A program made the position numbers and the translations under genes. The notes under the pieces are model-generated. The model had not been told where the DNA came from and searched no databases. It worked only from the letters and a program-made list of their open reading frames with translations. From Picochlorum sp. 'celeri' (taxonomy: Eukaryota; Chlorophyta; Trebouxiophyceae), in contig JAACMV010000008.1 in assembly GCA_010909725.1 (NCBI GenBank), positions 434,001-498,000 on the forward strand: a stretch of 64,000 nt of DNA, written 5' to 3'. Numbering within the stretch: the stretch's first letter is position 1; the number at the start of each line of letters is the position of its first letter. Shown one piece after another: positions 17,201 to 64,000 of this stretch.

Positions 17201-20200
17201 AGGAAGGCAGGAACTTCCCGAAAACTTGAAGGCATTGTTCAGAGGAGTTACGATGATGGCCCCAGACCGCCGAACAATTATGAAAGTGAAGCTAGCCGCT
17301 GCAGGTTTCCAAGAAAGCAATACTATATCTACAAAATTCGATATGCTATATAAATTGTGCGAGCAGCAGCTGACGAAACAGCCACACTACGACTTTGGGT
17401 TGCGAAATATTCTTAGTGTTCTGCGATCAGCCGGCTCTGCGAAGAGGGCAAATCCACATATGTACGTGATCAAGACTGTTGTGTTCTGCATTTTTTTTCA
17501 ACTTATATACTTCGGATCACAAACTGCAGGACTGAAACAACATTAATCATGAAGACTTTACATGACATGAACGTCAGCAAATTCGTTCCCGAGGACGTTG
17601 AAACATTCTCTGGACTCCTTCATGATGTTTTCCCTGCGAACGAAGCAAATGCCCATTCTGCTACACTATTTTTAGAAACTCTACAACGTGTATGCAGAGA
17701 AGAAGGCAAAATATCCCATGCCAGCTGGATTGACAAATGTGTCCAGCTGTACGAAACTTCTCTTGTGAGGCATGGAATCATGGTCGTTGGGCCCCCGCGC
17801 ACTGGTAAGTCTTCAGCGATTGATATGGTCGCTAAGACTTTGACAGCATTGGGGTCAAAAACAAGCATTTGGAGGATGAATCCCAAAGCAATTACCTCTC
17901 CACAGATGTTTGGGAAGTTAGACGAAAGCACGGGCGACTGGACTGATGGTATTTTTTCTGCTCTCTGGAAGAAGGCATCGAGCGCATCACATTCGGTTTG
18001 GATTGTCCTAGATGGGCCAATTGATGCAGTCTGGATAGAGAATCTCAATACCGTCTTGGATGACAACAAACTCTTGACTTTGGCCAACGGCGATCGTATT
18101 CGCATGTTGCCTTCCATGAGGCTTATTTTTGAAGTAGAAAATCTGAGAAATGCTTCTCCCGCAACAGTTTCGCGTGCTGGGGTAATATACATGTCTCCAA
18201 CAGTGCTTGGATGGGCGCCAATACTCCAGTCATACGTTCATAATTCTGAGCTTCCACTCGGCAAAGCAAAGTCATTGATTGATAAAGTTATCGATTCAGC
18301 AATCAGACATTTTCAAAGATGCAATGTAAAATCTGATGTGGGGTTGGCTAGGCTGGTAGAGGCTTTCGTAACCTATCTTAGGGGCTATTCTGCCTCGAGC
18401 ACAAAGTTTCAGGAAACAGTGCGACTGTGTGAACAAGAGGAGCTTGGGCAAACTTTGGTCGAAAATGTTATTTTATTCTGCGCTATATGGGGCATTGGGG
18501 GGATTCTCGACGGCGAGAGCAGGATTGTATTCTCTCAGAGTCTGAAATCCGAATGGGACCATCTCAAGTTTCTGCCTCAGGGAGAGCCAATACACGACTA
18601 CTATTACTGTTTGGAGTCCGAGTGCTGGATAAAGTGGCAAGACCAGGTAGATAAACTTGATTTCTTCGCGTTACCTCGATCCAATGACGACAAAATTGAT
18701 ATTTTGAAAGTCACTGTCCCGACAGCACAAGGTCTTAGATGCAAGTTGCTGTTTGACTTGATAGTCTCTGCTGGACGAACTCCACATGTGCGTACATTTG
18801 TTGACTCTAGATTATTAGCAAATTTGTTTGATGATAAAGAAATTCATATTGTGGTGCAGATAATGGGGCCTCGTTCTTGCGGCAAGACAACAGCGATTCA
18901 ACAGTACTGTAAGATAGATGGATGCCACAATACTCCCGCGACCTTTGTGACGTTCTCTGCGCTGACTTCGCCGCAGATTTGTCAAAACGCTCTTGAAAGT
19001 TATTTAGAGAGGCGCCAGGGAAGAACATATGGGCCGATCGGAGGGAAACCTTCCATCTTTGTCTTGGATGACATCTCCATGCCAGACACCAATGAGTGGG
19101 GCGATCAACCTACAAATGAACTTGTGCGGCAATTATTTGAGCTGGGAGGATTTTATAGACTTGAGAAACCCATAGGAGAGTTTAAGATAGTGACAGATGT
19201 GACCTACATCACCTCGAGTTCTGTTGAAGGGGGACTAGAGCTTCCAAACAGGCTTTCAGGCAAATTGTGCTCAATCTACCTCAGCAAGCCAACTCGAGAG
19301 GAATTGATAGCTATGTTGCATTCTCTTGTCGACGTCGCCGTGATGACGGATAAATGGGATCGCTCAACTGAACTTTTGATGAAGAGCCTGGTTGACAAAA
19401 CAGTGTCATTGTGTCATGAAACTACATCCAAACTGAAAAAGTCGTCTGAGAAATTCCACTACACTTTTGGAATGCACGAGGCATGCACAATAATTAGGCA
19501 TGTGCTCTTTTGGGCAATTGGGCGAGAGAAGTTGAATGACCTGGTGGCCTTGTGGAATCATGAATGTCGCAGAGAATTGATGGACAAACTCATGTGTAAA
19601 GAGCACTGGACTATACTGAGTCCAATCCTGCAACGAGTAACTAGCGAGGTATGTTTTGAACTGTAATAAGGTGCGATTGCAACGAATTTGTATTACAGAG
19701 TTTGATCAACTTGTTGCTGTAGTTAAACTGCCCCCAATGTCACAATTCGTTATTTTCGAATCTGCTCTCTAACGAGGACCTATGCCAGCAACAGTACATG
19801 GAAATACCTGGAGGAATAGCAGGGGCAAGGAAAAATATGGAGAAAGTTCTTGCGAAGAGGACGAGAAATGGTCCTTCGCTCGTTCTATTCGATGACGCGG
19901 TCGAGCATGTCGTCAAGATTTCTCGTGTGTTATCGCTCGAAAAGCGATCGACGATGCTTGTTGGCGTGGGAGGGAGTGGCCGAAAAAGCCTCACTGCTAT
20001 CGCAGCTGAAATAGCGGACTGCAAATGCTGTTTTCCCTCGAAAGGGCATGAGAAGTCCTTGACAAAATTCTTGGAGGATCTCAGGACAGTATTCAGAGAC
20101 AGCGGAATCAAAGGCCAAAATATAGCTTTCGTTCTATGTGATACAGACATCAAGAACGAAAATTTTTTGGATTATATTAATCAGCAGCTTGTCACGGGTA

Positions 20201-23200
20201 GAATTGCAGGCTTGTTTGAAAAAGAGGATGCAGATATAATAGTGTCAGACCTTAGGTCAGCTTTCAAAGAAACCATGCCATCTGAACAGGACACACCTGA
20301 GCGGATTCTATCATTCTTTTGGGAGCGGGTTACACGGAATCTACACTTTGTATTCTGCTTCTCCCCAACCGGCGACCAGCTATTAAAGTGGACAAAAAAG
20401 TTCCCTGGCCTCCTTTCTGGCTGTACAGTGAATTGGTTTCATTCTTGGCCCATACAAGCTCTGGAATCCGTCTCCAATAAACTCCTATCGTTGAGAAATG
20501 AATATTGTGATGCTATAGAGATATCTTCTGTCGACATTTCTGTACTGGTTAGTAAAATCCATTTTCTAATGTCTGACTTGTCTGAGACATACCGTACAGA
20601 GACTGGGCGCGTCGTCCATATCACTCCCAAATCATATCTCTCGTTCATTGAGTCTGTGAATGATCTCTTTCACAAAAAATATAAAGTTCTGAAAGATTCA
20701 TACGGTGCTTTATGTTTAGGCCTCGAGAAGATGAACTCCGCAAAGGAGCAGGTAGACAAAATGAAAGATGAATTAAAAGTGAAGCAGGCCAATATAGCCG
20801 AATCGCAGAAGCAGATGACAGCATTGATCAGCGAAATCGATAGCAGCACTAAAGATGCTACAAAAGAAAGAGAAAAAGTCCAAAACATCGTATCCAGTGT
20901 TACCAAGCAGGCTGAGGAGATCTATGAGACCAAGATGGAGGCTGAAAAAGACTTGGAAGCCGCTAAGCCAGCTCTAGATGCTGCATTACAAGCCCTGAAC
21001 TCAATCACTCCTAAGGACATGAATGCACTGAAAGCTTTGAGGAAGCCACCTGACGTTATCAAAAGGGTCATGGACTGTGTTCTGCTCTTTAGGCATTTGC
21101 CCATTTCGCGCCCAAGCTGGCATGAGGTTAAAAACGTCATGGTGCTTGAAGCAACCTATGAGGAGTCTCTGAAAATGATGAGCGACATGGGCTTCTTACA
21201 AACCCTTCTCAGTTTTCCAAAAGATGAAATGAATGATGAGACTGTGGAGCTTCTGCAGCCATATTTCAGGTCTCCTGATTTCAATTATTCCTCAGCGAAG
21301 AAGGCCAGTGGTAACGTCGCCGGCCTCTGCAATTGGGCAGAGTCGATGTGCAAGTACCATATTGTAGCTAGGGAAGTGGAGCCGAAAATTATAAGGCTGA
21401 AAGAATCTCAGAAAGAATTGAACTTTGCCAAGAAGGAAGAGGAGCGGGCAACTGCGGATTTAAAAATTGTCGAATCGGCATTGAATTCTCTCCAACAGAA
21501 GTTCCAAGATGCTCAACGGAAGATGAACGATTTGAAAGAAGATGCCGAGAAGACAACAATGAAGATGACTAACGCGATGACTCTGATAGAATCCTTGGGG
21601 AGTGAGGAAACAAGATGGCGCATTTTGCATAAGGAAAAGCAGGTGCAAATGCAATACCTGCTCGGCGACTGCCTTCTCGCTTGTTCATTCACCTCGTATC
21701 TAGCACCAATAGGAGTTTCACATAGAAATACTTTCGTGCAAAGGGTGAAGGAACTCTGCGAAGGGATGGGGGCTGAGTCAGATCCTGACTTTTGCCCGGT
21801 TGACTTTCTGAACGAGTCTGGTTGGGTACTCGAGTGGATTGAAGAGGGTCTCCCATCTGACGATTTCTCCATACAGAACGGAACTCTTTTCACTTTAAGC
21901 CATAGAGTACCGTACATTATCGACCCGCAAGGTCAGGCGCTACGTTGGCTGCAGCGAAAGTACAAAAATGCTGTCTGTATCCCACTATCAAGCAGCGCCT
22001 TTCCCAAGAGCTTAGAGGATTGCATAACCCAGGGGAGGCCATTAGTTATTCAAAATGTCGATAGCCACTTTGGATCGTCCCTTGACGACGTGCTGGAGCC
22101 CTCATCAAATGGATATGTAAGATTGGCCGACAAAGAAGTTCAAGTGACTGAAGGCTTTCGAGTAATCCTGATAACCAGTCTCCCCAACCCAACCATATAT
22201 CCTGAAATTTTTGCCAAATGCACAGTAATTAATTTTACTGTCAGTTTTAATGGTCTAGAAGATCAATTTTTGGGTTTCCTCATATCTAGAGATGAGGCAT
22301 CCTTGGAAAACAAAAGGCAAAACTTGGACGAGGATGTGCGTAAATGCAAGTCGAAAATGCAGCAGCTCGAGTCAGAACTCCTCAGCCGATTATCTTCATA
22401 TCAGGGAGATATTTTAGAGGACTCTGATTTGATTGGTGTGCTTAGAGACACAAAGGAGACAACAAACCGTGTCTCTGTTAGACTGGAGGAGGCCTCTCGA
22501 ACGAAGGCACAGATTAGTGAAACATGTGACATGTACAAACCCTGTGCAAAAAGAGCGACACTTTTATACTTCACTTTGTGTGACTTTTCGGTTCTCAATC
22601 ATATGTACAACACATCCCTCGAGCAATTCAAAGTATGGCTCGACGAGGCCATCAAATCTGCACCTGCATCTAATGAAACAGAGCTTAGAGTTCAAAGTGT
22701 CACAGATGAGCTCACTCGAATAATCTATGAAAAGGTTCAGTATGGAATTTTTGAACATGATAAGGATCCCTTCAGATTTTTGATGGCTACTAGAGTTTGT
22801 GAGAGTGAGAATCGGATGGAAGAGACAGCGCTTCAATTGAACTCGCTTCTTTCCATGGGGAAAGCCACAGCATCCAGTAAACGAAAGCCAAAGGAATGGT
22901 TATCAAACGCTCAATGGAGAAATGCTGTACATCTCCAGCGGACTTTACCTGCAATATTTGGAGACTTAGCAGCATGTTTACAGACAAATGATGCGAAGTG
23001 GAAGGCTTGGCTTAACTCGGACGCCCCTGAGAAGAGTCCTAGCCCATTTGCTGCCAAAAGGAAACTTGATGATATGTCGCAAATGTGCATGACGAGAGCT
23101 TTCCGACCCGATAGGGCGGGTAAAATGGTATCTATTTTTGTTGAAAATGTATTAGGCGAACATTTCTTATCATCTAGATCAGCCGACTTGCATGTCGTAG

Positions 23201-25084
23201 CCTCTACAACGGCGTGGAACTGTCCTATAATTTGTGTCATCTCTCCAGGGGTGGATCCTACTTCAAAAATAAATGAAATCTCAAGAAAACTGAAGACTCT
23301 GTGCCATAACGTTTCCATGGGCCAGGGTCAGGAGCCAATTGCCAGGGAATGCATTAAAATCGCGAAGCAAAGGGGCGAATGGGTCTGCATCCAAAATGCT
23401 CATTTAGCAGAATCGTATCTGAAAGAACTAGAGGAGGAATTGTATTCCCTCAAACATGCGGACCCTAATTTTCGTTTGTGGATCACAGCCGAGCCTTCAA
23501 CGTCATTTCCTATCGGTCTTTTGCACATGGGACTTCGGATCACATGTGAACCTCCTTCGGGTTTGCGCGATGGCCTGACTTCTCTTCTCAGTGGCCTAGA
23601 CGCCGACATATTGGATGAGGTCAAAATGCCGCAGTGGAGGTGCTTACTTGTTTCTCTCAATATAATGCATGTGGTCGCTCAGGAAAGGAAAAAGTTTGGC
23701 CCTTTTGGATGGAACGTGCCTTACGAATTCAGCCATGCAGATTTGGTGTCGAGCATGAATGTTATCGCCAACCATTTGCAAGAATTGAGGGGCAAAAGAT
23801 CGGCTAGCATTAACTGGGATTCTTTACACTATTTGATTGGGATCATTCAATATGGTGGGCGTATCATTGATGAAAGGGATCAGAAACTGATGCTGAGCTA
23901 TTGCAAAAGATTCATTTCAGATGAAGTCCTGTCCGGGTCCATCATGCTTCTCAATGCAAAGAGATTCCCCAAGTTAGCGCCCACATATCGCTTTGATGGT
24001 GCGTTTCACTATTTGAATAGTCTCAAATATAGTTGTTGATTTCATTGGAGTTTGTGCAACTGCAGTGTCTGAGGATTCAACCTTGGAAAAGCTCATCGAA
24101 GCTGCTAGACAGATTCCACCCTATGATATTCCGCAGATATTCGGCCTGGACATGTCGGCAGAAGTGCGTTCGAAAGTTTTGAAGGCTACTTCTATGTTTC
24201 ATTCAATAAATCTAGCAGCTAATCCACCAGCCGTTGCGTCAAAGACGTCGAGCGACGATACTTCTCTCATAGAAACCATTTCCAGTATCATGCTCAAGAT
24301 ACAACCCACTTCTCCTGATATATTGAACACTAGTGAGAATACATGCAAGCTTTCAGCTCCTTTGAAAACATTTTTCAAAATTGAAATCATGTTCCTCAAT
24401 TCCGTGTGGGAGCGGACAACCCGAGATCTCCATCGCCTCCAAAGTATCATTGAAGGCAGTACTACCGCCTCTACTGACGATGTTGCGCTCCTTGAGAGGA
24501 TCAAAATGAAGGAAGCAAATACGGCATGGTCACCTGAGTATTGGTGGCGATGCGATTCTCTAGACGCCTGGGTACAAAGTTACACCCTGTGCAGAGAACA
24601 CATCTGCTCTCTAGATCAGAAATGCAAGGGCAGATGCATTTGGTTACCAGGTCTGTGCAATCCAAACGCACTATTGAATGCAATACTGCAAGAGGAGGCA
24701 CGGTCGTCGAAAGGGAAAGGTACCACAATTGATACTCTCCAGATATCATATACAATCACAAAGTATTCTGATCCCAAATCAATACGAGACGCCCCCAAAG
24801 AGGGCATATACATTTACGGCTGTGTCTTGGAGGGAGCCTCTTGGGACAGTCAGTCATCAAAATTGGTCCACAAGGAAGATTCGGTGCCTCAAACCTTTCC
24901 TGTGATACATGTCACAGCTATACCACGAACATCAGCAGTCAGCAAGAGAAAAGTACTCCTGGCACCGCTGTATACTACGGAGAGAAGGACAGCCAAGGCT
25001 TTTGTTGATTACATTCCCCTGCCCATCGATGGCAGTGAGCTGGAGTGGGCTCAAGGGGGAGTCGCTCTCATATGCAATGAATAG
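11292..25084 (+). CDS. Axonemal outer-arm dynein heavy chain, gamma (DNAH5/DNAH8) class
   Basis: Ten exons join in phase: 11292-12179, 12247-13517, 13590-14519, 14594-15319, 15379-15517, 15594-15990, 16057-17461, 17530-19648, 19723-23998 and 24066-25084. Introns are 59-76 bp. The product is about 4,389 residues. The tail fills the first 1,300 or so residues and the linker follows. AAA1 has GPAGTGKTETTKD near 1,723, AAA2 GPPRTGKS near 2,005, AAA3 GPRSCGKT near 2,363 and AAA4 GVGGSGRKS near 2,706. Coiled-coil stalk arms around the microtubule-binding tip lie near 2,950-3,240. The segment YVVVFNCSDQMD, then GYAGRQELPENLK and NILSVLRSAGSAKRANP, matches the DNAH5/8 and Chlamydomonas gamma class best. 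This motor drives ciliary beating in the outer dynein arm. The junction at 15593/15594 was set by alignment to the family's linker. The first exon may be incomplete. Confidence 0.9.
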
Positions 25085-36732: not shown

Positions 36733-39700
36733 TTATCGGTTTCTCCTTTTGACTTTGACCCTTCTTCTGCCCTCTGATTGAGAATTTCCAGATGATCCCA
36801 CACTGAATCCCCCAGCAGTAGGAGCGCTGCCCCCAAAAGGATTGTCGCCGTTTGGAATCATTTGACTTGGTCCGGATGGTGGAGCAAATGGCCTTGGTGC
36901 AGTAAAGCCCTCACCGAATCCTGTGGCCTGTTGTGGGGCTCCAAATTGGGCTGCACCCTGCCCAAAAGCACCAAAAGCACCTGCTCCGGGTCCTGCATTC
37001 GATTGCTGAGCAGCAGGAGCGCCAAATGCTGCTGCTGAGCTATTTGCACCAAATGGAGCATTGCTAGCTTGTGGAGCACCAAAGCCCCCGGAGTTGCCAA
37101 AACCTCCAGTGTTGCCAAAACCTCCAGAGCTGCCGAAACCTCCAGTGTTGCCAAAACCTCCAGAGCTGCCAAAGCCCCCTGTGTTGCCGAAGCCCCCTGT
37201 GTTGCCGAAGCCCCCAGAGCTGCCAAACCCTCCTGCGTTACCAAATCCACCGCTTGTTTGCTGCGAGCTGTCCATGGTCATTGCAGCTCCAGTGGAGCCT
37301 CCAAATGCTGTGCCAGTACTGGGCTGGTTGGGATTTGTTGGTCCTCCAAAAGAGAATCCAGTCGTAGCTGCTTCAGATTGAGGGTTTTGTCCCTTGGCTA
37401 CAGAGGCGTCTGCAGCCTGAGAAGCTGCTGACCCAAACATAGCTTGGCCAGATGAGGGTTGGGTGACAGTTGCTCCGAAAGCAAATGGAGCTGCTGAGGG
37501 AGCACTGTTAGCAGATCCAAAGGTGAATTTACTTGGCGAGGAGAAGCCTTGGCCTCCAGTAGGTGCTTCCTCCGGTTTCTTGTCATTTGATGCTCCAAAG
37601 GCAAACTTGTTGGTCTCACCTGCTGATTTGCCAAATTGAAAGGTGGGTGCAGGAACAACCCCTGTATCGACCGGTTCCCCTTGTTTAAGCGAAGGGGCGC
37701 CACTTGGGGCTACACCAACAACATCACCAGAAGGCTTTGCTTCCTCCACTTTAGGGGCACCAAACGTGAAGGCAGGCGTAGGAGGCTTTGCAGCCTGCTC
37801 TCCGTCTGCTTTCTTGGTCTCTTCTTCTACAGCAGCAGTCACCTTGGCTGCAGTTGCAGCATTCTTCTGCAAAAAGTCAGAGCCCCAGCCACTCGCTGGT
37901 GCCGTGGTCCCTGCAGTGCCGGCATCACCAGAAGGCTTTGCTTCCTCCACTTTAGGGGCACCAAACGAGAAGGCAGGCGTAGGAGGCTTTGCAGCCTGCT
38001 CTCCGTCTGCTTTCTTGGTCTCTTCTTCTACAGCAGCAGTCACCTTGGCTGCAGTTGCAGCATTCTTCTGCAAAAAGTCAGAGCCCCAACCACTCGCTGG
38101 TGCCGTGGTCCCTGCAGTGCCGGCATCACCAGAAGGCTTTGCTTCCTCCACTTTAGGGGCACCAAACGAGAAGGCAGGGGTAGGTGGCTTTGCAGCCTGC
38201 TCTCCGTCTGCTTTCTTGGTCTCTTCTTCTACAGCAGCAGTCACCTTGGCTGCAGTTGCAGCATTCTTCTGCAAAAAGTCAGAGCCCCAACCACTCGCTG
38301 GTGCCGTGGTCCCTGCAGTGCCGGCATCACCAGAAGGCTTTGCTTCCTCCACTTTAGGGGCACCAAACGAGAAGGCAGGGGTAGGTGGCTTTGCAGCCTG
38401 CTCTCCGTCTGCTTTCTTGGTCTCTTCTTCTACAGCAGCAGTCACCTTGGCTGCAGTTGCAGCATTCTTCTGCAAAAAGTCAGAGCCCCAGCCACTCGCT
38501 GGTGCCGTGGTCCCTGCAGTACTGGCATCACCAGAAGGCTTTGCTTCCTCCACTTTAGGGGCACCAAACGTGAAGGCAGGGGTAGGTGGCTTTGCAGCCT
38601 GTACTCCATCTGCTTTCTTGGTCTCTTCTTCTACAGCAGCAGTCACCTTGGCTGCAGTTGCAGCATTCTTCTGCAGAAAGTCAGAGCCCCAGCCACTCGC
38701 TGGTGCCGTGGTCCCTGCAGTACCGGCATCACCAGAAGGCTTTGCTTCCTCCACTTTAGGAGTACCAAACGTGAAGACAGGAGTGGATGGCTTCCCTACA
38801 TCTGGAGTCTGTGTTTTAGTGAACGAAGATCCAAACGCACCAGGCTTCACGGAAGGGGCGCTAGCCTCAGTGCCTGGTGTAGGCGCACTGAAATCAAACA
38901 AGGGTTTCGGCTCTGGTTTAAGAGAGGCCTTTTCCGATCCGTCGCCACCTTTTGCCTGCAAAAGCGCGTCACATCGATAGTGAGTAGATTCAGTAATAAA
39001 GTAAATTGTGAAAGGCTGTTCACAGAAACATACCTTGACTCTGTCCTGTCCAAATTTGAATTGCGATCTATCAGTTGAGGATGGCAGTACATCCTTGACT
39101 ACCTCTGATACCTTCTCCCTCAATACACTTTTTTGCTTGCCAAACGTATATACGTCTGATGCACCTTCATCTACCTTGGATGATGCATTGAATAATGGAT
39201 TATTTGATGTTGTGTTGATGTTTGCTTGGCCAAAACCATATGATGCAACAGGTACCTCCTTCACAGGAGCCTTCTCCATTGAAGGCACAGTCGAGCCTTC
39301 TCCTCCAAATGTGACCTTACCTATATCCCCTACTTTCCGCTTCACTTTCTTCCTCTGTACCTCTTCCTTGCCAGATGGTGGACTCGATCTTCCCAATGGA
39401 GACTGTTTGACCTCCGGAGTTTTCTTTGCCTGTTGCCCAAAATCTGCAGGCTTTGATGTGTCCTTTTCAATCGTCGAAGGCTTCTCTGCGTCTAGTTGAG
39501 GCATCAATCCACCGAGGGATGAACCAGGAGGTGGAGATGGTGCAACACCCATTGTATATTTCTGGGCATCAACAGGTGACACAGATTCCCTCGATTTACG
39601 TATAGTTTCTTCCATAGAATCAAGTGTTTCTAAAATTCTCCTAGCAGTTTCTGAGGTGGGTTTTGGTGATTCACTATCTGACACTCTCTTTGCTGGAACA

Positions 39701-41013
39701 CCTGGCGTCAGTGCTGACGGAGTTGTTTGACTATCCACACGCCTCTTGTAATGTGACATATGCTGGTATGGAGTCCTCCCTGCCCTCCAGCTTCTTTTTC
39801 CAGCAGTAGAAGGGTCTTCATTTGGTTTAAACCTCCGCCGCCGTTGCACATCCAGCACACTCACACTTCCATCATCATAACTAGGTGTCATTCCATGGAC
39901 ATCGTCAGCCCTTCGCTTCCGCGACTCTGGTGCAAACCGTGTGCTACTTCCAACCTGAAACCGCCTTGCTGCTGAATTCGGTATGACTGGAGTAGACCTG
40001 AGCGGGGTCCATGCCAATGGCGACTCCTTTGCCACAGAGGATTCCTTCACCATGGAACCTCGCATGGCACCGAATACCATTGGTTTCTGACGCTCATTTT
40101 TTTCTGCAGGCGTACTCTTTTGCAACTGACTCTGGGTAGCATGAAATGTAAATTCCTTCTTCACTTGACTAGGAGGCAATGGCGGGATCCCATTGCCAAA
40201 CAACTGTTTCCCTTGCCCACGCCCAGCCAAGCGGCTTACTCCCGGTGTTCCATTCATATCAACTAATCCCTTCTTCTGCGTAAGACGGCTACTCATAGGA
40301 GTTGAAGACGTGTCGCCTTTCATTGCCTTTTGCCTAGATTTTGGCGATGGAAATCTCAGCGGAGTACCCCCTCTCGCAAGAGGCCCTTCCTTCAACATAC
40401 CCAGCACGCCATCGTACGGAGTATTCCCAACATGAGGACTACTATTCTTCCCATCCTCCCTATCTAGCTGTTGAACCACAGGTGTTTTCGCATCCTCACC
40501 CATCTCTCCTTGTGCCCCTGGCGTTTTCTTCTCCTCCTCCTCCTCCTCCAACACCACCACCGCAGCAGCTTCCTCTTCTTCATGCTCTTCGTTATCATAA
40601 ACATTCATAGCATCGTCTTCATCATCCCCAGCGCCCTGATCCACCGCCTGCTGTGAATCATGGCTCTGCCCCAACTTCCCGCCAACAATGCTCCACGCAG
40701 CCCGCAGAGGCGTCGTCGCAACAGCCAGCATACTCCCCAAAAATCCACTCGATTCACTCATTCGTCTACCCACACCTGCTCCGTCCCGCGTCGTCTGACC
40801 TGCCATGTTCCTTTGCACCCCATCCATTCCCCGCCGACGCCCACCGTACGGGGCTCCCTCCGCCCGTGCTTTAATTGCATCCAATTTATTCCGCCTCTCC
40901 TCATCCATGCCGACCACGCGAGGCGCCTTCCCGTCCTCCATGGTATTCAAGTGTCTCCTTTCTTCCCCAGGCAGTCCTTCCTCCTCTTCCTGCTCACGCA
41001 CAGATATTCTCAT
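36733..41013 (-). CDS. FG-repeat nucleoporin, probably nuclear-basket type (Nup1/Nup136/Nup153-like)
   Basis: The minus-strand frame encodes about 1,400 residues with one 78-bp intron at 38956-39033. From the N-terminus the protein has a charged region with Arg and acidic runs, and a Ser/Pro-rich middle with F-G and K-F-G motifs. Next come five nearly identical 67-residue repeats, each with a single FGAPKVEEAKP segment. After these come FG-rich segments, a GGFGxx hexapeptide block and a basic tail ending KVKRRNR. FG repeats form the permeability barrier of the nuclear pore. The N-terminal region with an amphipathic stretch and the basic tail resemble basket nucleoporins, but FG proteins diverge fast, so the exact orthologue is unsure. 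The first in-frame ATG is at 41013. Another at 40941 is a good alternative. The splice sites are plausible, and the intron has no stop. Confidence 0.75.
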   Translation of the reverse strand: MRISVREQEEEEGLPGEERRHLNTMEDGKAPRVVGMDEERRNKLDAIKARAEGAPYGGRRRGMDGVQRNMAGQTTRDGAGVGRRMSESSGFLGSMLAVATTPLRAAWSIVGGKLGQSHDSQQAVDQGAGDDEDDAMNVYDNEEHEEEEAAAVVVLEEEEEEKKTPGAQGEMGEDAKTPVVQQLDREDGKNSSPHVGNTPYDGVLGMLKEGPLARGGTPLRFPSPKSRQKAMKGDTSSTPMSSRLTQKKGLVDMNGTPGVSRLAGRGQGKQLFGNGIPPLPPSQVKKEFTFHATQSQLQKSTPAEKNERQKPMVFGAMRGSMVKESSVAKESPLAWTPLRSTPVIPNSAARRFQVGSSTRFAPESRKRRADDVHGMTPSYDDGSVSVLDVQRRRRFKPNEDPSTAGKRSWRAGRTPYQHMSHYKRRVDSQTTPSALTPGVPAKRVSDSESPKPTSETARRILETLDSMEETIRKSRESVSPVDAQKYTMGVAPSPPPGSSLGGLMPQLDAEKPSTIEKDTSKPADFGQQAKKTPEVKQSPLGRSSPPSGKEEVQRKKVKRKVGDIGKVTFGGEGSTVPSMEKAPVKEVPVASYGFGQANINTTSNNPLFNASSKVDEGASDVYTFGKQKSVLREKVSEVVKDVLPSSTDRSQFKFGQDRVKVCFCEQPFTIYFITESTHYRCDALLQAKGGDGSEKASLKPEPKPLFDFSAPTPGTEASAPSVKPGAFGSSFTKTQTPDVGKPSTPVFTFGTPKVEEAKPSGDAGTAGTTAPASGWGSDFLQKNAATAAKVTAAVEEETKKADGVQAAKPPTPAFTFGAPKVEEAKPSGDASTAGTTAPASGWGSDFLQKNAATAAKVTAAVEEETKKADGEQAAKPPTPAFSFGAPKVEEAKPSGDAGTAGTTAPASGWGSDFLQKNAATAAKVTAAVEEETKKADGEQAAKPPTPAFSFGAPKVEEAKPSGDAGTAGTTAPASGWGSDFLQKNAATAAKVTAAVEEETKKADGEQAAKPPTPAFSFGAPKVEEAKPSGDAGTAGTTAPASGWGSDFLQKNAATAAKVTAAVEEETKKADGEQAAKPPTPAFTFGAPKVEEAKPSGDVVGVAPSGAPSLKQGEPVDTGVVPAPTFQFGKSAGETNKFAFGASNDKKPEEAPTGGQGFSSPSKFTFGSANSAPSAAPFAFGATVTQPSSGQAMFGSAASQAADASVAKGQNPQSEAATTGFSFGGPTNPNQPSTGTAFGGSTGAAMTMDSSQQTSGGFGNAGGFGSSGGFGNTGGFGNTGGFGSSGGFGNTGGFGSSGGFGNTGGFGNSGGFGAPQASNAPFGANSSAAAFGAPAAQQSNAGPGAGAFGAFGQGAAQFGAPQQATGFGEGFTAPRPFAPPSGPSQMIPNGDNPFGGSAPTAGGFSVGSSGNSQSEGRRRVKVKRRNR
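37085..37240 (-). repeat. 18-bp tandem repeat encoding GGFGxx hexapeptides
   Basis: About nine units of an 18-bp repeat encode Gly-Gly-Phe-Gly-[Asn/Ser]-[Thr/Ser/Ala] inside the nucleoporin gene. Units differ at a few bases. This is a dense GFG cohesive block typical of FG nucleoporins. Confidence 0.85.
37723..38727 (-). repeat. Five tandem copies of a 201-bp repeat within the nucleoporin gene
   Basis: The motif ATCACCAGAAGGCTTTGC recurs at 37723, 37924, 38125, 38326, 38527 and 38728, a constant spacing of 201 bp (67 codons). Internal copies differ by only a few bases, while the outer ones are slightly more diverged. That pattern points to recent expansion by unequal crossing-over. Because 201 is a multiple of three, all six frames stay open or closed together, which creates long false antisense frames. 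Confidence 0.93.
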
Positions 41014-41352
41014 CCTCTGAGCGTATAGTATACATATGAAATACACGGCTCAACAGCCGTTGTGAGACACTCTACCCATCACGGACGCAGTCGACAGTGC
41101 TGAAACAGACATGGGCATTCCCACACAAGCACCCATTCGATGGGAGAATGACGACTGTCCCATCCAAGCCTGCCTACAATGGGACCAAAGAACTCCACAG
41201 CCAACGCAAGATAGCGGATAAAGACGATATATAAACATCCACCCACGCCAACAGATTCACGAGTAATTCTCACTTTTCATTGATAAAGTGAATAGTACAT
41301 ACAAAACAAGAACGAAGTACAACTGCATTGTACACGTTGCTAGACGATTGCA
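41014..41352. other. Divergent promoter region between nucleoporin and ClpC genes
   Basis: About 340 bp lie between the two starts. No coding potential is seen. Small frames here do not resemble known proteins. Confidence 0.45.
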
Positions 41353-54406: not shown

Positions 54407-55675
54407 ATGCCAACTTTTGCCCCGAATGCGAGTGCGGACGATGTGCCTGCGCGTGAGATCGGCGGCACCGATCGCGCGTATTCGGATCATACCCAAGAAA
54501 TCGATGTAGATATAGTGAATAATGATACATGTCGCGCAAACAAGGCGGCACCGCCGAGAAAATTTTTCAAACCTCGGGAAGAGGAGCCTCCCAGGAAGTA
54601 CCCAAGACTGGAAAATGGCCACATTTTGGCCAAAAATAGCCTTCCTGAAGGGTTTCCGGAACTCATCACTGCCCTGTATAGTGACGTCAAGGTGTGGTAT
54701 GAGAAGAGCAGAAAGATGGAGGGAATGCACGAAGAAGAGAGGTCAAGGTGTGCCTCCCTGCAGGCTCAAGTAGCACAGCTAGAGGGTGAGTTGTCCAGGA
54801 ACAGGGCCCATGCCCAAAAGGTGGTCGAGCTGGCTTCGCCCTTGGTCATCACATCGCAACATGCAATCGATGCATGGCAAGAGAAGACCCGGTACCTGCA
54901 ACAGTGCATCCTTGGGCTTGGATCCTTTGTTGCAGAGGAGGCAGAAGCGGTTGACCACACCCCTGCAGTTGGAGTGGATGAGCCAGCCATGGACGAAGCA
55001 TCGGGGGGCTTGCACGACCACATTGAGATATGCAGTTTCTACGGGACGACAGTAGTGGGGACAGAGCAAGCTCATGCTGTCAGCACGAAAGGGTTAGAGT
55101 TCATGTTGCAGCAACGTGATGGGGACAGGGCCACAGTGGACCAAACCATCCATCTCTTCAACATCAAGGTGGGCGAACACGCAGTGATGGACAAATATGG
55201 ACGTCGAATCTCGAATGGATTCTGTGTACTGCAATACGACCTGCAAAGGTGTCTGAGGAAAGCGTTTGGTGACCCTGCTGTGAAGAATTTTGGGAACCAT
55301 ACACAGAAGACAAACAAGTTTGTGTTGCCAAAGGCAGTACTGGTATCAAAACTCACAGATGTGGCCGTCGATGAACTTACATCAAAAAAAATAATCATGA
55401 GGAATAAGCCGAACCAGGAATTCTGTTTCATTCCGTATGCAGATGTTGAGCATGTCCTTACCAAGTTTGCCCAGCACAACTGCAGGCAGCAGCAGACCAC
55501 AGCAAGGCTCCTCCTCCTGCAGTCGATGCTTGACAAGTTCTATCGACGCTATTGCTGTGGTGAGGAGGTTGTTGAAGGCCAGGGCGAGGCCGTGTCAGGG
55601 GATGGAGGCCAAGAGTGGTCTGTTGAGAGAACTGATGCTGTGTCCTGCCTGCCAGAACCTTCACATGGCACCTGA
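54407..55675 (+). CDS. Unknown protein, companion ORF of the KDZ-like transposase
   Basis: This intact frame of 422 residues is not recognised. Residues 45-70 are Pro/Lys/Arg-rich (PPRKFFKPREEEPPRKYPR) and could be a nuclear localisation signal. Residues about 95-140 are predicted helical, with heptad-like Leu/Ala spacing (SLQAQVAQLEGELSRNRAHAQ). The C-terminal half is compact, with a segment near 280-365 that looks folded (LQYDLQRCLRKAFGD to FIPYADVEHVLTKFAQH). The tail is low-complexity. The gene ends 15 bases inside the 3' end of the transposase gene on the other strand. Such overlap is common for two genes carried by one element. It may be a DNA-binding or accessory protein of the transposon, or a host gene. 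The sequence does not decide. Confidence 0.6.
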   Translation: MPTFAPNASADDVPAREIGGTDRAYSDHTQEIDVDIVNNDTCRANKAAPPRKFFKPREEEPPRKYPRLENGHILAKNSLPEGFPELITALYSDVKVWYEKSRKMEGMHEEERSRCASLQAQVAQLEGELSRNRAHAQKVVELASPLVITSQHAIDAWQEKTRYLQQCILGLGSFVAEEAEAVDHTPAVGVDEPAMDEASGGLHDHIEICSFYGTTVVGTEQAHAVSTKGLEFMLQQRDGDRATVDQTIHLFNIKVGEHAVMDKYGRRISNGFCVLQYDLQRCLRKAFGDPAVKNFGNHTQKTNKFVLPKAVLVSKLTDVAVDELTSKKIIMRNKPNQEFCFIPYADVEHVLTKFAQHNCRQQQTTARLLLLQSMLDKFYRRYCCGEEVVEGQGEAVSGDGGQEWSVERTDAVSCLPEPSHGT

Positions 55676-58600
55676 GGACGGCCAACCGTTCCTCCTCTGC
55701 TTTCGTTTCTGCTCGATATTCATTCTTTTTAGCTTGTGGTAATTCCAATGACACATGAATGACTTCAGGAGCGTCATGAACGATTTCTGTGACATTCTGC
55801 TCATCATGGCCTTCAGGTTCTTCAAGGATGAGTTGTTCTGCTCTGCAACTTGCGTGTTTAACGCCTGTAACCACTTGTCTTCGTACCCTTTAATCATATA
55901 TCCAAGACTGCATGCTTTGTGGTTCCTCCAATGGAAGCCATCCACGAAGAATTTGGTGTGCATGAAGAACAATGGTGCCCTGCTCAAGCAATAGTCCTGC
56001 AAGTTGCATGCATTGTCGTAAATGACGTATTCCGGGGCTTTTCTGAGATACTGTGTCATGAATGCAAATGGTTCTTTCCTCCCTTCTGCTTCTTTGATGA
56101 TGAAGGATGCATACACAAAACCATGCTCACACAGGATGGTGAACACCCCTCCTGTCCTGTCTCCAGGCTTGCAGAACGCGTGCTCACACGCATCTTTCCT
56201 CCCGTCAACGCTCTCTTCCTCTTTCATCGAGTCTGCCTGATATTGGGGCTTGGATCGGACGCGCTGCAGGCCCGTCAGGATGCCAGAATGTAGGTATGAC
56301 CCATCCAGAATTGATGGTCCCTGAGGTGGGACACCACTCCCAAGCTCGCTTTCCAGCGTGTATCTATCATGGAAAGCATTTGTACTCTCGATTCGGGTCA
56401 CTAATTCATTCAGAAGATTGCCCCATTCCGCCGGAATGTGTACGCAAGAGTCCCCAGGCCGCTTGATGGTCAACAGCAGTTTGAACAGGGGTGGGGCCTC
56501 CTTGCTCAGCTGCGACAGCACACCACTCGGGACCGTGCGGCTCTCCAAACATTCTTTGAGTAGAATACAACATCTCAACGTGATGTAGGATACAGCGGGG
56601 GACTCGGAGGCGAGGCAAAAGATGAAGTCTGCCAGGCTGGTAAGCCTCTCTGAGGAGTCCCAGGCTTTGGCTTTAGCAAACGCCCATTGCACGAAGGAAT
56701 CCACATTCCAAAGGGTTCCAAGTTGTCTTAAATGTCGTCCTTTATCCCTCCAAAATTCCTCCAGACCCGCAGCGTCGCGAGCCTTCCTGATCCGCTTCTG
56801 GAACTGCAGCAACAGCCTAGCAAGGGAAAGCCTAGCTTTCCTTGTTCTTCTGGCCTTGTCTACATTGAGGAACGACCTATCCCTTTTGCCCCGAAGCTTT
56901 GGAACACTCTTGCCGTTCTCATCGGTGGCCGTGATGCTGTCGGCGAAGCAAGCTCTGGATCTGATGCTCATGCTTGTCCCATCCATGATCAGCACCTTTG
57001 GGGAGTCTTTGCAGCAAGGGCACATCATCTGGTTCTCTAGCTCCACCAGTTTATCCCCATCGTCGTATTTCATTGCCCACGATGTGCATTTACCGAACTG
57101 GATTGCAGCATTACGAAAGAGCGTGGCATCCATAAAGGGCTTTTCCAGTGGGGCCCCAGGTACCCCATCCTCACCAAACAACTGCTTCCCACTGTATCTG
57201 CTGCATAAATCCGCGCACTGGCTTTCCAAAGACTGACCACCCTTTAGAACAGATGCATTATAGGCATCTTGCATCATTTGAAGCTCTATAATCATCGTGT
57301 TCGAAGCTCTCCACAGGCCATCCTGAACCCCCATGTATGGCACTTCACACTCTGCCCTTCTGTTGGGGCATACCCACTTGTATACGGATCTCTTGTGCAC
57401 TGCATCATATCGCGTGGGATTCAGGAATACTAAGGCGTCTTGGCAGTCCAGTACGAGCCCGCTGGCGTCCTCATAGTCCTGCTGGCAGCAGCATTGCCTA
57501 GATGGCTTTGGAGGCTTCAGTTCTGCAAGCCCTTCAAAGTATCGTTCGCCGCTAGGATGCTCCCAGGCGCTCAAACCTGCGTGATATATCCTCTGAATAC
57601 TTTCAAGCACACTGCCATGCATCGGCATATCTATTCGTGCCTCTTCTGGGTGGTTCTCCACATACCACTCTACTGAGCCAGGCCTGCTGTCTATCACATA
57701 CACCTCCTGACTGCCATTGCCTCGTGCATTCTGCGCCACGGCACCTTCTTGATTCATAGAACATATTTTCTGAACATGACGACAGCTGCGATTGTCTCGA
57801 GAACACAAGGAGCACCGCCAACCAGCCTGGTCCACTTTGAGAAAGCCCCCATCATAGTAGTATGCCACAAAGGTCCCATCCCTCCTAGTTACCTGTACCA
57901 CGTCATGCGCCGCCCCAAATGTGCCAGACTTTAAGGTATCATAGTGCTTTTCCAAGTACTGAACGTGCACACAGTCGCCCTCCTCGTCGTAGCCAGAAGT
58001 GTAAGTATCACAGTTGCATTCAAATTTTCTCTCTTTGGCATCTGGGCAGTCAACCCTCACTAACATCATATGATTCAGAGATTCGCCCACATGCCCGTGT
58101 TTCCTCGAGTCTATACACGCCCATGATAAGGATTCTCGATGCCCCATGTGCTCCTGTCTGCAGAGTGGCTGCACAGGTGGGTATTTGACCTGTCTCAGCA
58201 TGTCCTCATACCACTCTAGAGAACCAGGCCTTAAGAGCGGCTCTCCATCCCAGGTCTTCGTTCTTTTCCTGGAATAGTTCGTCATCATCCTACTTTCGGA
58301 CAATTTCCGCCGTTTCATGCCCTTGGGCTGCTGCGCAAGTGCAATATCCAAAGGAGGAAACCTCTTGCCCATGTTGTGAAAATGAAACACCTCATCTAGG
58401 ACTGATAATTCGCGCAGATCGGCGGCATTCTTCAGCAACACCCCCTTATATCCAGATATAGAAATGTACACGGGAAGATTCGTCAAGGATTGCACCTTCT
58501 CGAATGCATTTTGAATGCATCTGGTCTTGTTGTGCCAGCCTTGCTGGACAACACGACTGTTGGGATTACTCCCCTGAAACAGGCATATCTCCACAGGAAT

Positions 58601-58816
58601 CCTGGGCAAGGCTATGTCCTTAATACCTTTGGACTTTTGAAGCAAATTCATGAAGGTTTGGTGCACAGATGCCCAGATTTCGGGGGCATCTGAGTAGCCA
58701 ATGTTGCCTGTTCTGGAGACATAGATGCTCCTCTGAGGCCCCAACCACGCCACCAAAGCGCAGGTTGCCCCATAGTCGCACACCATATCACGCATATGGT
58801 CTGATATTTTCATCAT
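55661..58816 (-). CDS. KDZ (Kyakuja-Dileera-Zisupton)-like transposase with SWIM-type zinc fingers
   Basis: This single intact frame encodes 1,051 residues. The N-terminal third has SWIM-like zinc motifs: C-x-C-x(n)-C-x-H in ECNCDTY...GDCVHVQYL near residues 264-287, and a C-x2-C...C-x-H near 333-347 (CSLCSRDNRSCRHV). The C-terminal half resembles the KDZ catalytic core. VLIMDGTSMSIRS holds a candidate first Asp (D612), VIYDNACNLQDY a second (D934), and AEQNNSSLKNLK the Glu (E992). Between them lies FVDGFHWRNHKACSLGY, matching the D-x-FHW-x-[NG]H-x-x-C-S pattern of this family. No stop or frameshift is visible, so the copy may be active or recent. The family and catalytic residues are assigned from remembered motif patterns, without a database search. 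Confidence 0.75.
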   Translation of the reverse strand: MMKISDHMRDMVCDYGATCALVAWLGPQRSIYVSRTGNIGYSDAPEIWASVHQTFMNLLQKSKGIKDIALPRIPVEICLFQGSNPNSRVVQQGWHNKTRCIQNAFEKVQSLTNLPVYISISGYKGVLLKNAADLRELSVLDEVFHFHNMGKRFPPLDIALAQQPKGMKRRKLSESRMMTNYSRKRTKTWDGEPLLRPGSLEWYEDMLRQVKYPPVQPLCRQEHMGHRESLSWACIDSRKHGHVGESLNHMMLVRVDCPDAKERKFECNCDTYTSGYDEEGDCVHVQYLEKHYDTLKSGTFGAAHDVVQVTRRDGTFVAYYYDGGFLKVDQAGWRCSLCSRDNRSCRHVQKICSMNQEGAVAQNARGNGSQEVYVIDSRPGSVEWYVENHPEEARIDMPMHGSVLESIQRIYHAGLSAWEHPSGERYFEGLAELKPPKPSRQCCCQQDYEDASGLVLDCQDALVFLNPTRYDAVHKRSVYKWVCPNRRAECEVPYMGVQDGLWRASNTMIIELQMMQDAYNASVLKGGQSLESQCADLCSRYSGKQLFGEDGVPGAPLEKPFMDATLFRNAAIQFGKCTSWAMKYDDGDKLVELENQMMCPCCKDSPKVLIMDGTSMSIRSRACFADSITATDENGKSVPKLRGKRDRSFLNVDKARRTRKARLSLARLLLQFQKRIRKARDAAGLEEFWRDKGRHLRQLGTLWNVDSFVQWAFAKAKAWDSSERLTSLADFIFCLASESPAVSYITLRCCILLKECLESRTVPSGVLSQLSKEAPPLFKLLLTIKRPGDSCVHIPAEWGNLLNELVTRIESTNAFHDRYTLESELGSGVPPQGPSILDGSYLHSGILTGLQRVRSKPQYQADSMKEEESVDGRKDACEHAFCKPGDRTGGVFTILCEHGFVYASFIIKEAEGRKEPFAFMTQYLRKAPEYVIYDNACNLQDYCLSRAPLFFMHTKFFVDGFHWRNHKACSLGYMIKGYEDKWLQALNTQVAEQNNSSLKNLKAMMSRMSQKSFMTLLKSFMCHWNYHKLKRMNIEQKRKQRRNGWPSSGAM

Positions 58817-61099: not shown

Positions 61100-61408
61100 T
61101 TAGTTCTTTCCAAAGCTGTGTTCCATCTTGTTGGCCTGGATCTCATTACGGATGCCCTTCATCTCATCGGCCATCTGCTGCATGGTGGAAGCAATGTGCT
61201 CAAGCCCACGCATCAACAATTTTGGGTGAGACTTTCCAGACACTCCAGAAACTCCTGACACGCCAGACACTCCAGAAACACCAGACACGCCAGAGACCGC
61301 TGGGGCATCCATGCTCTTATGGCCTCCCAGTCCAGCGGCAGAAGCAAACTTGAATGATCCTGCAAACAGCATGATAGCAAGGAGAAGGAGAGAAGTGAAG
61401 CTCTTCAT
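61100..61408 (-). CDS. Small secreted GVS-repeat protein, copy 1
   Basis: The gene encodes 102 residues without introns. The open frame extends upstream, but the ATG at 61408 begins a clear signal peptide (MKSFTSLLLLAIMLFAG, cut near ASA), so it was chosen. After a short linker comes a run of six Gly-Val-Ser tripeptides, then a conserved C-terminal module: HPKLLMRGLEHIASTMQQM followed by an Ala/Asp/Glu/Lys-rich helix and IRNEIQAN. I recognise no known family. The GVS run may be an extended or beta-type repeat and the C-terminal part an amphipathic helix. A second copy lies 871 bp downstream and a diverged third member after it, all on the same strand. A secreted structural or coat protein is possible but is inference. 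Confidence 0.75.
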   Translation of the reverse strand: MKSFTSLLLLAIMLFAGSFKFASAAGLGGHKSMDAPAVSGVSGVSGVSGVSGVSGVSGKSHPKLLMRGLEHIASTMQQMADEMKGIRNEIQANKMEHSFGKN

Positions 61409-61508
61409 TGTGCTTTGGCTTTGTTTGTTTGTTGTTGTGTGCCTGGAAAACGACGGAGAATAATTTGAATACTGATTTGATTCTGCTAGAGTCGGAGATG
61501 ATCCGTTG

Positions 61509-61516
61509 CATAAATA
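61509..61516 (-). promoter_or_regulatory. TATA-like element of GVS copy 1
   Basis: On the minus strand this reads TATTTATG, about 100 nt before the ATG. The same element lies at the same distance in copy 2 (62380-62387). A CTATAAA element lies about 100 nt before the third member's ATG (63279-63285). The shared spacing supports a real promoter element. Confidence 0.45.
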
Positions 61517-61582
61517 CATTTTTGGCATGGGCCCGCCATGGGACCACGGATCAGGTTTTCCCAGGGACCTGGGACCATGGGT

Positions 61583-61970
61583 GTGGCGCTCCCATGTCCT
61601 GGGACAACGGCTGCCATGGGGCCCCAGACGTACTGATTCCCCGACACACGGCTCCAACTGATGTGTTGCTTCAAATCGAACACCCAGAACCACTCTGAAT
61701 GGGCTGCACGGTCCCACGAGTTGAGCCCAAGCTGAGTTTGCAGTGCGAATGCCCCATTGACAATCATAATAGGAGTCAGCGCACGGCATTCCACGGTGAG
61801 ATATCTCCTCGGGCTACTTTTGCTCTCTGTGAAAGCAACTATTGGGCTAGAATGTGTTGAAAATATTTTAAGTGACATCGAAGGGTCTTGATTTACACAC
61901 TGTTCTCTTGGCAACAGAAGTCACGGGAGGTTATCATATATTATCAGAATTCATAACAGGTTTGATTTTC
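61583..61970. other. Unique spacer between the two GVS duplication blocks
   Basis: About 390 bp hold the distal promoter of copy 1 and the 3' flank of copy 2. Near 61590-61630 and 61708 there are several more copies of a GTCCCA/TGGGAC motif that also occurs inside the duplication. Open frames here are extensions of the GVS frame and are not supported as genes. Confidence 0.5.
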
Positions 61971-62279
61971 TTAGTTCTTTCCAAAGCTGTGTTCCATCTT
62001 GTTGGCCTGGATCTCATTACGGATGCTCTTCATCTCATCGGCCATCTTCTGCATGGTGGAGGCAATGTGCTCAAGCCCACGCATCAACAATTTTGGGTGA
62101 GACTTTCCAGACACTCCAGAAACTCCTGACACGCCAGACACTCCAGAAACACCAGACACGCCAGAGACCGCTGGGGCATCCATGCTCTTATGGCCTCCCA
62201 GTCCAGCGGCAGAAGCAAACTTGAATGATCCTGCAAACAGCATGATAGCAAGGAGAAGGAGAGAAGTGAAGCTCTTCAT
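61971..62279 (-). CDS. Small secreted GVS-repeat protein, copy 2
   Basis: This 102-residue product is nearly identical to copy 1. The signal peptide, the linker and the GVS run are the same base for base. In the C-terminal module Gln becomes Lys (MQQM to MQKM) and Gly becomes Ser (EMKGIRN to EMKSIRN), and one change is silent. Both copies are intact. The identical leader and promoter imply very recent duplication or ongoing gene conversion. The same uncertainty on function applies as for copy 1. Confidence 0.75.
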   Translation of the reverse strand: MKSFTSLLLLAIMLFAGSFKFASAAGLGGHKSMDAPAVSGVSGVSGVSGVSGVSGVSGKSHPKLLMRGLEHIASTMQKMADEMKSIRNEIQANKMEHSFGKN

Positions 62280-62453
62280 TGTGCTTTGGCTTTGTTTGTT
62301 TGTTGTTGTGTGCCTGGAAAACGACGGAGAATAATTTGAATACTGATTTGATTCTGCTAGAGTCGGAGATGATCCGTTGCATAAATACATTTTTGGCATG
62401 GGCCCGCCATGGGACCACGGATCAGGTTTTCCCAGGGACCTGGGACCATGGGT
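61971..62453. repeat. Segmental duplication, copy 2 (483 bp)
   Basis: Partner of 61100-61582 at an offset of 871 bp. The two blocks are in direct orientation. Sequence beyond 62453 and before 61971 is unrelated between copies. Confidence 0.93.
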
Positions 62454-62724
62454 CACACTTCCCAGGTGATCCCATTGGATATCACACAATGACTAACCTC
62501 TCTAGAAACCATGCAGATCGCGCCACAAAAAGATTTTGGGAACACAAAAACCTTTTTCAGCGCCAGTTTCAGTATGTTGCATAGAATACATTCTGTGCTT
62601 GAGCTGCTCGAGAGCTTGGAGGGTTGGGGTATCCTAGGTCATGGCTTGGTTACATTCAGTCTGATGGTTGATATATAAATCAGAAGACAGAGCAGGCATA
62701 CAAAGAACCAGAAATATGCTCAAA

Positions 62725-63177
62725 TTACATATCACCGTGTTTGGTAGCAATGTTAGCATTCATTTGGTCTCTAATTGATTGCATCTCCTCTGACAATCTT
62801 TGCATTTTAGCAGCAAGATGTTCAAGACCCCTCATGAAATACTTTGGATGCTTCTTGGCAACCTTCACAGCCTCGGCAGCTGGAGCCTCAGATGCCACTG
62901 CAGAGACCCCAGAGACGGCGGCAGACACTGCAGACACGCCTGAGACGGCGGCAGAGACTGCAGAGACCCCAGACACGCCAGAAACATCTGCTCCAGAGAC
63001 TGCGCCGGACACAGCACCAGACACATCAGCACAATACGCTGCAGCAGCAGTTCAATTTGTTCAATTTGTTATGTAAGATGTACAGAACGCAACATTCCCA
63101 AACAATCGCCTACCAGGGTTGAACGCTACGGCCAAAAGCATGGCAAGGACAGCCAAAGATTTCACAAACACCTGCAT
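62725..63177 (-). CDS. Small secreted GVS/AVS-repeat protein, diverged third paralogue
   Basis: Two exons on the minus strand (63114-63177 and 62725-63038) join across a 75-bp GT..AG intron, giving 125 residues. Exon 1 encodes a signal peptide (MQVFVKSLAVLAMLLAVAF) that continues into exon 2 and ends near YCA. The mature part begins DVSGAVSGAVSGADVSGVSG, then runs of GVSAVSAAVSG, followed by an Ala/Glu/Lys linker. The C-terminal module is HPKYFMRGLEHLAAKMQRL, then EEMQSIRDQMNAN. Compared with copies 1 and 2, the motif HPK..MRGLEH.A..MQ....EM..IR....AN is shared. The family thus varies in its repeat and keeps its end module. The intron is absent in the two short copies. The first exon is too short to be seen as an open frame alone. 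Confidence 0.78.
62873..63038 (-). repeat. Short tandem repeat encoding Val-Ser-Gly/Ala units
   Basis: Imperfect 9-bp and 24-bp units encode GVS, AVS and GAVS tripeptides in the third paralogue. The 9-bp unit also forms the GVS runs of the other two copies. Confidence 0.8.
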
Positions 63178-63729: not shown

Positions 63730-64000
63730 ATGGTTGAAACACATATTTCTAATATAATGTTTGGTTGTGCACCCACATCTCTGAAACGGTGTTTCATGGG
63801 TGCCATTTTGGTGCTGCTGACGGTTCAGACTGTTCTAGGAAACAACGCCTTAACGGACCTCCGGCGAAGCTTGCAAGAGGAGGCTACAATAATCAATGTT
63901 TGTGTACCATTTGAAGTAGACAATGCGTTCGACAAGTGTGACAAGGCACTCGATGCTCTGGATAGCCCGGCTGGGAACCTAACGTTTCGATGTGTGGCAG
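63730..64000 (+). CDS. Predicted secreted protein, 5' part, truncated by the window end
   Basis: A frame opens at ATG 63730 (or at 63757, nine codons on) and is still open at the window edge, giving about 90 residues. The hydrophobic stretch FMGAILVLLTVQTVLG ends near GNN and looks like a signal peptide. From 63757 the signal peptide would have a normal short n-region. The mature part reads NNALTDLRRSLQEEATIINVCVPF and contains spaced cysteines (VCVP, KCDK, RCVA) that may form disulfides. I recognise no family. The product may be an extracellular protein and could extend well beyond this window or contain introns. Confidence 0.5.
   Translation, partial: MVETHISNIMFGCAPTSLKRCFMGAILVLLTVQTVLGNNALTDLRRSLQEEATIINVCVPFEVDNAFDKCDKALDALDSPAGNLTFRCVA

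Follow-up and report, generated by a model that had tools for sequence, protein, structure and literature searches.

A Tandem Family of Small, Putatively Secreted Val-Ser-Gly Repeat Proteins with a Four-Heptad End Module in Picochlorum celeri

Overview

Three adjacent genes of the tiny, salt-tolerant green alga Picochlorum celeri encode small proteins that combine a signal-peptide-like start, a run of Val-Ser-Gly or Val-Ser-Ala triplets, and a conserved end module, and the family appears undescribed as far as our searches covered. The end module has the residue pattern of a four-heptad coiled coil, and we give an even chance to the reading that these are small secreted proteins, assembling by the helix and holding repeat arms in the cell wall or periplasm, with a structural or spacer role. 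Secreted proteins that pair repeats with oligomerising helices are already known.

The window, that is, the whole 64,000-nucleotide stretch of DNA that was analyzed (46.6% G+C), lies on contig C8 of a genome of 27,412,692 bases in 30 contigs. In the available part of its report, the published phased diploid assembly is given as 27.43 Mbp, with two sets of 15 scaffolds and 46% G+C (PMC7225527).

Gene Structures and Haplotypes

All three genes are read from the minus strand. Gene 1 (61408-61103, stop codon at 61102-61100) encodes 102 amino acids, made of a signal-peptide-like start, seven VSG units, and the putative coiled-coil end module. Gene 2 (62279-61974, followed by its stop codon; 61971..62279 in all), also of 102 amino acids, is a recent duplicate of gene 1. 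The 125-residue product of gene 3 relies on an inferred splice: exon 1 (63177-63114), which carries the signal-peptide-like start, would be joined across a 75 bp GT-AG intron (63113-63039) to exon 2 (63038-62725, including the stop), which carries twelve VSG/VSA triplets, a K-containing linker, and the end module. The first-pass annotation had described three adjacent same-strand genes. The place and strand of all three hold, but genes 1 and 2 arose by recent duplication and are almost identical, and the three genes therefore yield two distinct proteins.

The duplicated unit comprises the coding region and 174 bp upstream, and its two copies (copy A, 61100..61582; copy B, 61971..62453) are identical at 480 of 483 bp (99.4%). 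The three base differences between genes 1 and 2 all fall in the end module, one being silent and two replacing (two amino-acid differences). By eye, a stretch rich in CCATGGG/TGGGACC marks the upstream end of the unit (61530-61620 and 62400-62453), and this region is possibly tied to the duplication or the regulation of the unit. A TATA-like word, counted without a chance control, stands 107-108 bp 5' of the ATG in each gene (TATTTA in genes 1 and 2, where it is common by duplication, and TATAAA in gene 3). The word TGTAA, which we take to be the green-algal poly(A) signal, is found in each of the three genes 64-77 bp beyond the first base of the stop codon, also without a chance control.

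A region of contig C17 shares 99.8% identity with the C8 window across two long stretches (4,623 and 2,576 bp) and looks like the allelic counterpart of the locus. All three genes are present on this haplotype as well, and an additional copy of the gene 1/2 unit, truncated and with a broken frame, lies between genes 1 and 2 (C17:491616-492071, or 2617-3072 of the extracted locus L008). Because only long reads were used to polish the assembly, according to the available part of its report (PMC7225527), this extra copy may be a real copy-number difference or a long-read assembly artefact.

Within the genome, matches to a DNA pattern of the repeat are confined to this cluster on its two haplotypes. 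This pattern, written for three successive VS(G/A) units, with one mismatch permitted and serine codons taken as TCN only, gave 26 matches in 27.4 Mb, 13 per haplotype, all within the three genes, and the reversed control gave 0. Among the best candidates scored, the gene 1 query found seven places at E ≤0.001, namely the three genes on two haplotypes plus the C17 fragment, and the gene 3 exon 2 query found six places at E ≤1, the three genes on two haplotypes.

Coding Constraint on the Repeat and the End Module

Against the consensus of its seven VSG units, gene 1 has seven deviating bases, and since all seven are at third codon positions, this repeat has been kept as protein. In gene 3, the twelve triplets (seven VSG and five VSA) deviate at 15 third and 5 second positions, the latter being Gly-to-Ala changes. 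Repeat tracts of GVS or AVS had been proposed for the whole cluster; repeats are indeed found in all three genes, but AVS/VSA units occur in gene 3 only, gene 1 having no VSA. It was also rightly noted that the repeat varies in length while the module is kept, with seven VSG units in genes 1 and 2 vs. twelve VSG/VSA triplets in gene 3.

Between the modules of genes 1 and 3, there are 12, 4, and 23 base differences at first, second, and third codon positions, respectively; 18 of 33 residues are kept, and dN is 0.32. Their residue identity is 17/32 in the gene frame, vs. 5 to 13/32 in the other five frames. Taken as codon statistics, these figures support the reading of the three loci as real genes.

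Heptads and Predicted Helix of the End Module

The end module, HPKxxMRGLEHxAxxMQxxxxEMxxIRxxxxAN, matches in all three genes, as first described. With the H of HPK as position 1, its positions 5, 9, 12, 16, 19, 23, 26, and 30 follow, over four heptads, the 4-3-4-3 spacing that is typical of coiled coils. The core of genes 1 and 2 is LLIMMMII, that of gene 3 is FLLMLMIM, and those of the relatives P0001 and P0002 are MLIMLMVI and FMIMLMMM, respectively. Across nine family proteins (genes 1 and 2, near-identical, are both counted, and the partial P0008 is left out), a single ungapped register places a hydrophobic residue at 8/8 a/d positions in 9/9 proteins, with just 1-2 hydrophobic residues among the other 20 positions (Ala not counted). 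The chance of such a pattern is about 1e-4 per protein after allowing for seven registers, a value that must not be multiplied over proteins, because the proteins are related to one another and the choice of register was made by eye.

The AlphaFold monomer of gene 1 has a predicted helix at residues 62-100 (block-mean pLDDT 64-85), and that of P0007, a more distant protein, has one at residues 49-76 (block pLDDT up to 77). The repeat is without structure in both, and whole-model confidence is low (pTM 0.27 and 0.23, respectively). Two module residues that do not vary among the four aligned members, Glu 22 and Arg 27, occupy g and e' positions and could form an inter-helix salt bridge; the first site, Glu 22, is Lys in the four distant-group modules used. 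The proposal of a repetitive scaffold bearing a putative assembly head fits the heptad pattern, the predicted helix, and the variable length of the repeat beside a kept module; actual assembly or binding would be a further step.

Relatives in Public Data

Gene 1 was searched against a collection of 5.8 billion proteins, in which scoring covered the 7,986 candidates with the most words in common. The matches were P0001 (E 6.4e-27), P0002 (E 1.2e-13), and then four weaker proteins (E 0.076 to 0.69), including P0004, whose plan is alike by eye. With most of the repeat removed from the profile, P0001 and P0002 were the only proteins retrieved up to E 10 among 709 candidates. These two unnamed proteins (from the sources 'ena' and 'lgn') resemble gene 1 in their signal-peptide-like start, their VSG/VSA/ISG repeat, and their HPK end module, with identities of 58% and 49%, respectively. 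They differ from it in repeat length and linker, and P0001 is about 50 residues longer at its predicted start.

With P0004 as the query, the protein itself and four others were retrieved, constituting a second group (P0004, P0007, P0008, P0009, and P0010). P0008 is recorded as 'MAG: hypothetical protein ABGY24_16315, partial [bacterium]', and its sequence stops inside the helix. Like the celeri genes, this group has VSG/VSA/TSG repeats, a signal-peptide-like start visible in P0004, P0007, and P0008 and, in four of its five members, a heptad helix of the form GL(E/D)...(I/M)R that keeps to the same register. Unlike them, it has GxHL in place of HPK, a helix ending in LPEYE or LPEYT and, in four of five, VSG/TSG repeats flanking the helix, with a basic tail after the second repeat.

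Compared as whole profiles (A2 vs. all five), the two groups match with 93.7% probability. With the repeats excluded, the module-only comparison (four of five) covers 28 ungapped columns at 72% probability, and its score of 22.8 exceeds those of 150/150 shuffles keeping the hydrophobic pattern (best 18.3) and of 150/150 free shuffles (best 14.7). A simpler ungapped column score is weaker, being reached by 4/5,000 pattern-keeping and 1/5,000 free shuffles. For single sequences, 3 to 44/5,000 pattern-keeping and 0 to 7/5,000 free shuffles reach it, and the P0004 values are 41/5,000 and 6/5,000, with 4/3,000 on whole-protein shuffling. Used against the P. celeri genome, the P0007 query returned four places up to E 10, the two haplotypes' copies of genes 1 and 2, at E about 0.011 with the repeat counted in; gene 3 was not among them. 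Homology of the two groups is likely, not proven, the alternative being convergence on a coiled coil.

These searches also bear on whether the cluster is simply a low-complexity gene that has expanded recently and has hardly any specific function. Its spread is narrow, with two close relatives among the scored candidates (7,986 and 709) of the 5.8-billion-protein collection, and a partial copy is present on one haplotype only, as this explanation would have it. The third-position bias in both the repeats and the module argues against it, as do the heptad core common to nine proteins and the existence of a second group of similar plan, and we rate it as very improbable.

Family Classification

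None of the sequences scanned with Pfam, which were gene 1, exon 2 of gene 3, and six relatives (but not gene 2 or P0008), had a match at cut-off, and solved structures gave no significant match, with a best E of 0.11, in line with the initial statement that no named family has this plan. That best match is a weak profile match to bacterial Lpp (Braun lipoprotein; 1eq7, 9rld, and 9rlc), which is at best an analogy. Lpp is small and abundant at the cell surface and forms a short parallel coiled coil, but it is lipidated, bacterial, and devoid of repeat, whereas the celeri proteins carry one. A text search of the literature did not find the strings VSGVSGVSG and GVSGVSGVS, which speaks only to those printed letters, and the literature listings searched held no paper on a family of this plan. 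The available part of one paper describes a small green-algal secreted protein without known domains (PMC12213679), to which the celeri proteins are alike in size, green-algal source, and lack of domains, no sequence link being claimed.

Several known classes were considered and rejected. Collagen-like proteins have a Pro-rich Gly-X-Y repeat without breaks. The Pfam Collagen model scores 11.5 bits for gene 1 vs. a cut-off of 27.2 and is not listed for gene 3 exon 2; moreover, the VSG run contains no Pro, and gene 3 has Ala for Gly as well as interrupting residues. Hydroxyproline-rich wall glycoproteins are defined by Pro-rich repeats such as SP or XPn, and the mature chains of genes 1 and 3 each contain only 2 Pro, none of them in the repeat units. 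Plant-type glycine-rich proteins have very high Gly contents in (GGX)n or (GX)n, and here Gly makes up 13/78 and 9/100 residues of the mature chains, in a repeat that is VSG or VSA. The sub-cut-off matches to FAM199X (E 0.0048, gene 3) and to the TcdA/TcdB pore (E 0.0009, P0009) were taken as low-complexity noise, as were the other weak Pfam matches, including VSP on the transferrin-like neighbor. Viral contigs scanned with A2, P0007, and A3 gave no confirmed relative, leaving a viral origin unsupported, and prokaryotic genomes scanned with A2 and P0007 gave none either.

Signal Peptide and Possible Processing

Signal peptides were judged by hydropathy and the -3/-1 rule, rather than with a trained predictor. 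A hydrophobic N-terminal core is present in 6/6 starts examined, and an ASA, VSA, VAA, or ANA site precedes the repeat in 5/6. For gene 3, the filter gave only AVA, after residue 18, ahead of the repeat, and the cleavage site placed by eye, after AYCA, has an unfavourable Tyr at -3. On these features, the three gene products are putatively secreted.

A secreted protein of this layout might also be a precursor, cut at the basic linker (K, KK, or KTAK) so that the freed helix acts as a signalling or interaction peptide on other cells or on bacteria. The small size, the signal-peptide-like start, and the basic residues directly ahead of the module are compatible with this, and both amino-acid changes between genes 1 and 2 fall in the module. 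Nevertheless, the helix is mixed-charge by eye, unlike the strongly positive antimicrobial helices, and the repeat is constrained as protein, which a discarded pro-part would not need. Such a peptide role is therefore held to be distinctly unlikely.

Genomic Neighborhood

To the left of the cluster lies a phosphofructokinase gene. On the right, gene 3 stands head-to-head with a transferrin-like gene on the plus strand (63730..64000 from the first in-frame ATG, continuing to C8:499406; PF00405, E 1.2e-17 for the full ORF), its ATG being 552 bp away from the first in-frame ATG of that gene; the two genes adjoin on both haplotypes. The predicted protein has 536-558 residues, depending on which of three possible ATGs is used, with a transferrin lobe and, by eye, a signal-like start and a C-terminal membrane segment. 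Six matches to the transferrin family were found in the genome, at four places (C3, C23, C8, and C17), read as two loci per haplotype. Beyond this gene, a polysaccharide deacetylase match scores 18.4 bits, below the threshold of 23.1.

This arrangement raises the question of whether the repeat proteins act in the periplasm or wall as partners of the transferrin-like membrane protein, sharing a promoter region and serving in iron capture or transfer or in salt adaptation. In addition to the head-to-head placement on both haplotypes and the four genomic places of the transferrin family, Dunaliella offers a precedent, as its transferrin-like P150 is salt-induced and takes part in iron uptake, according to the available part of the source (PMC6952985). 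However, the adjacency was recognised only in hindsight and carries little weight in a genome this compact, and mature gene 1 has no Cys and just 4 His. Furthermore, the 300 bp upstream of gene 1 and the 539 bp gene 3-transferrin spacer show no excess of shared words: they have 4 8-mers in common, whereas 500 pieces drawn at random from the window have a mean of 6.6, with 399 of the 500 reaching 4. A partnership of this kind is considered unlikely. Slimmer still is the chance of the wider picture, in which a new self-assembling surface family of small algae would display Val-Ser-Gly arms on a four-heptad, Met-rich coiled coil and be co-regulated with the membrane transferrin via a divergent promoter common to both, the coat being part of an iron (or salt) surface response.

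Other features were observed elsewhere in the window. A dynein heavy chain is seemingly split across adjacent open frames (11268-25084), three of which are supported by Pfam (15483-24036); its D6 domain is found at two genome places, one on C8 and one on C17, and we know of no swimming in this alga. A 1051-aa open frame (55661-58816) with a KDZ transposase match (PF18758, E 1.2e-8) is a transposon relic or a gene. An FG-rich, nucleoporin-like open frame recognized by eye (36733-41046), with no Pfam match at 1e-4, contains a 201 bp unit repeated 5.3 times (37722-38793, 97% matches). A green-type light-harvesting gene was also recognized by eye.

Proposed Function and Perspectives

In the structural reading that we prefer, the signal peptide would direct the protein to the secretory path, yielding a mature chain of 78-100 residues in which a flexible Val-Ser-Gly/Val-Ser-Ala tract is followed by a short lysine-containing linker and a four-heptad amphipathic helix. 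The helix would associate into a short coiled-coil bundle, so that several repeat arms would extend from each core. Located in or over a thin cell wall or periplasmic space, these arms would act as a structural or spacer component, the repeat being free to vary in length while the helix is kept. The gene structures (with a putative intron), the codon-level constraint, the heptads, and the family members are read from the sequences, and secretion, oligomerisation, location, and structural role are all steps that we infer. The two genes on the right, transferrin-like and polysaccharide-deacetylase-like, are also surface-protein-like and were counted in favour of this reading; the low Pro, relative to many known algal wall proteins, and the moderate Gly were counted against it. 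Picochlorum is a small coccoid alga without scales, and a role as a scale protein is, therefore, unlikely.

Among the papers found by a literature search on Picochlorum secreted or wall proteins, no title concerns its wall or coat proteins, and a text term search of the P. SENEW3 genome paper found the terms 'secreted' and 'signal peptide' absent. According to the available parts of the sources, Cas9 editing is in print for P. celeri, and the native ARS1 signal peptide brings GFP to the cell periphery (PMC8172913). A duplicated, compact family with a signal-peptide-like start and a putative assembly module offers a concrete entry point, as tagging and deletion of its genes are feasible in P. 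celeri. If the repeat-plus-helix design does assemble, it would also constitute a simple scaffold of natural origin, with arms of adjustable length.
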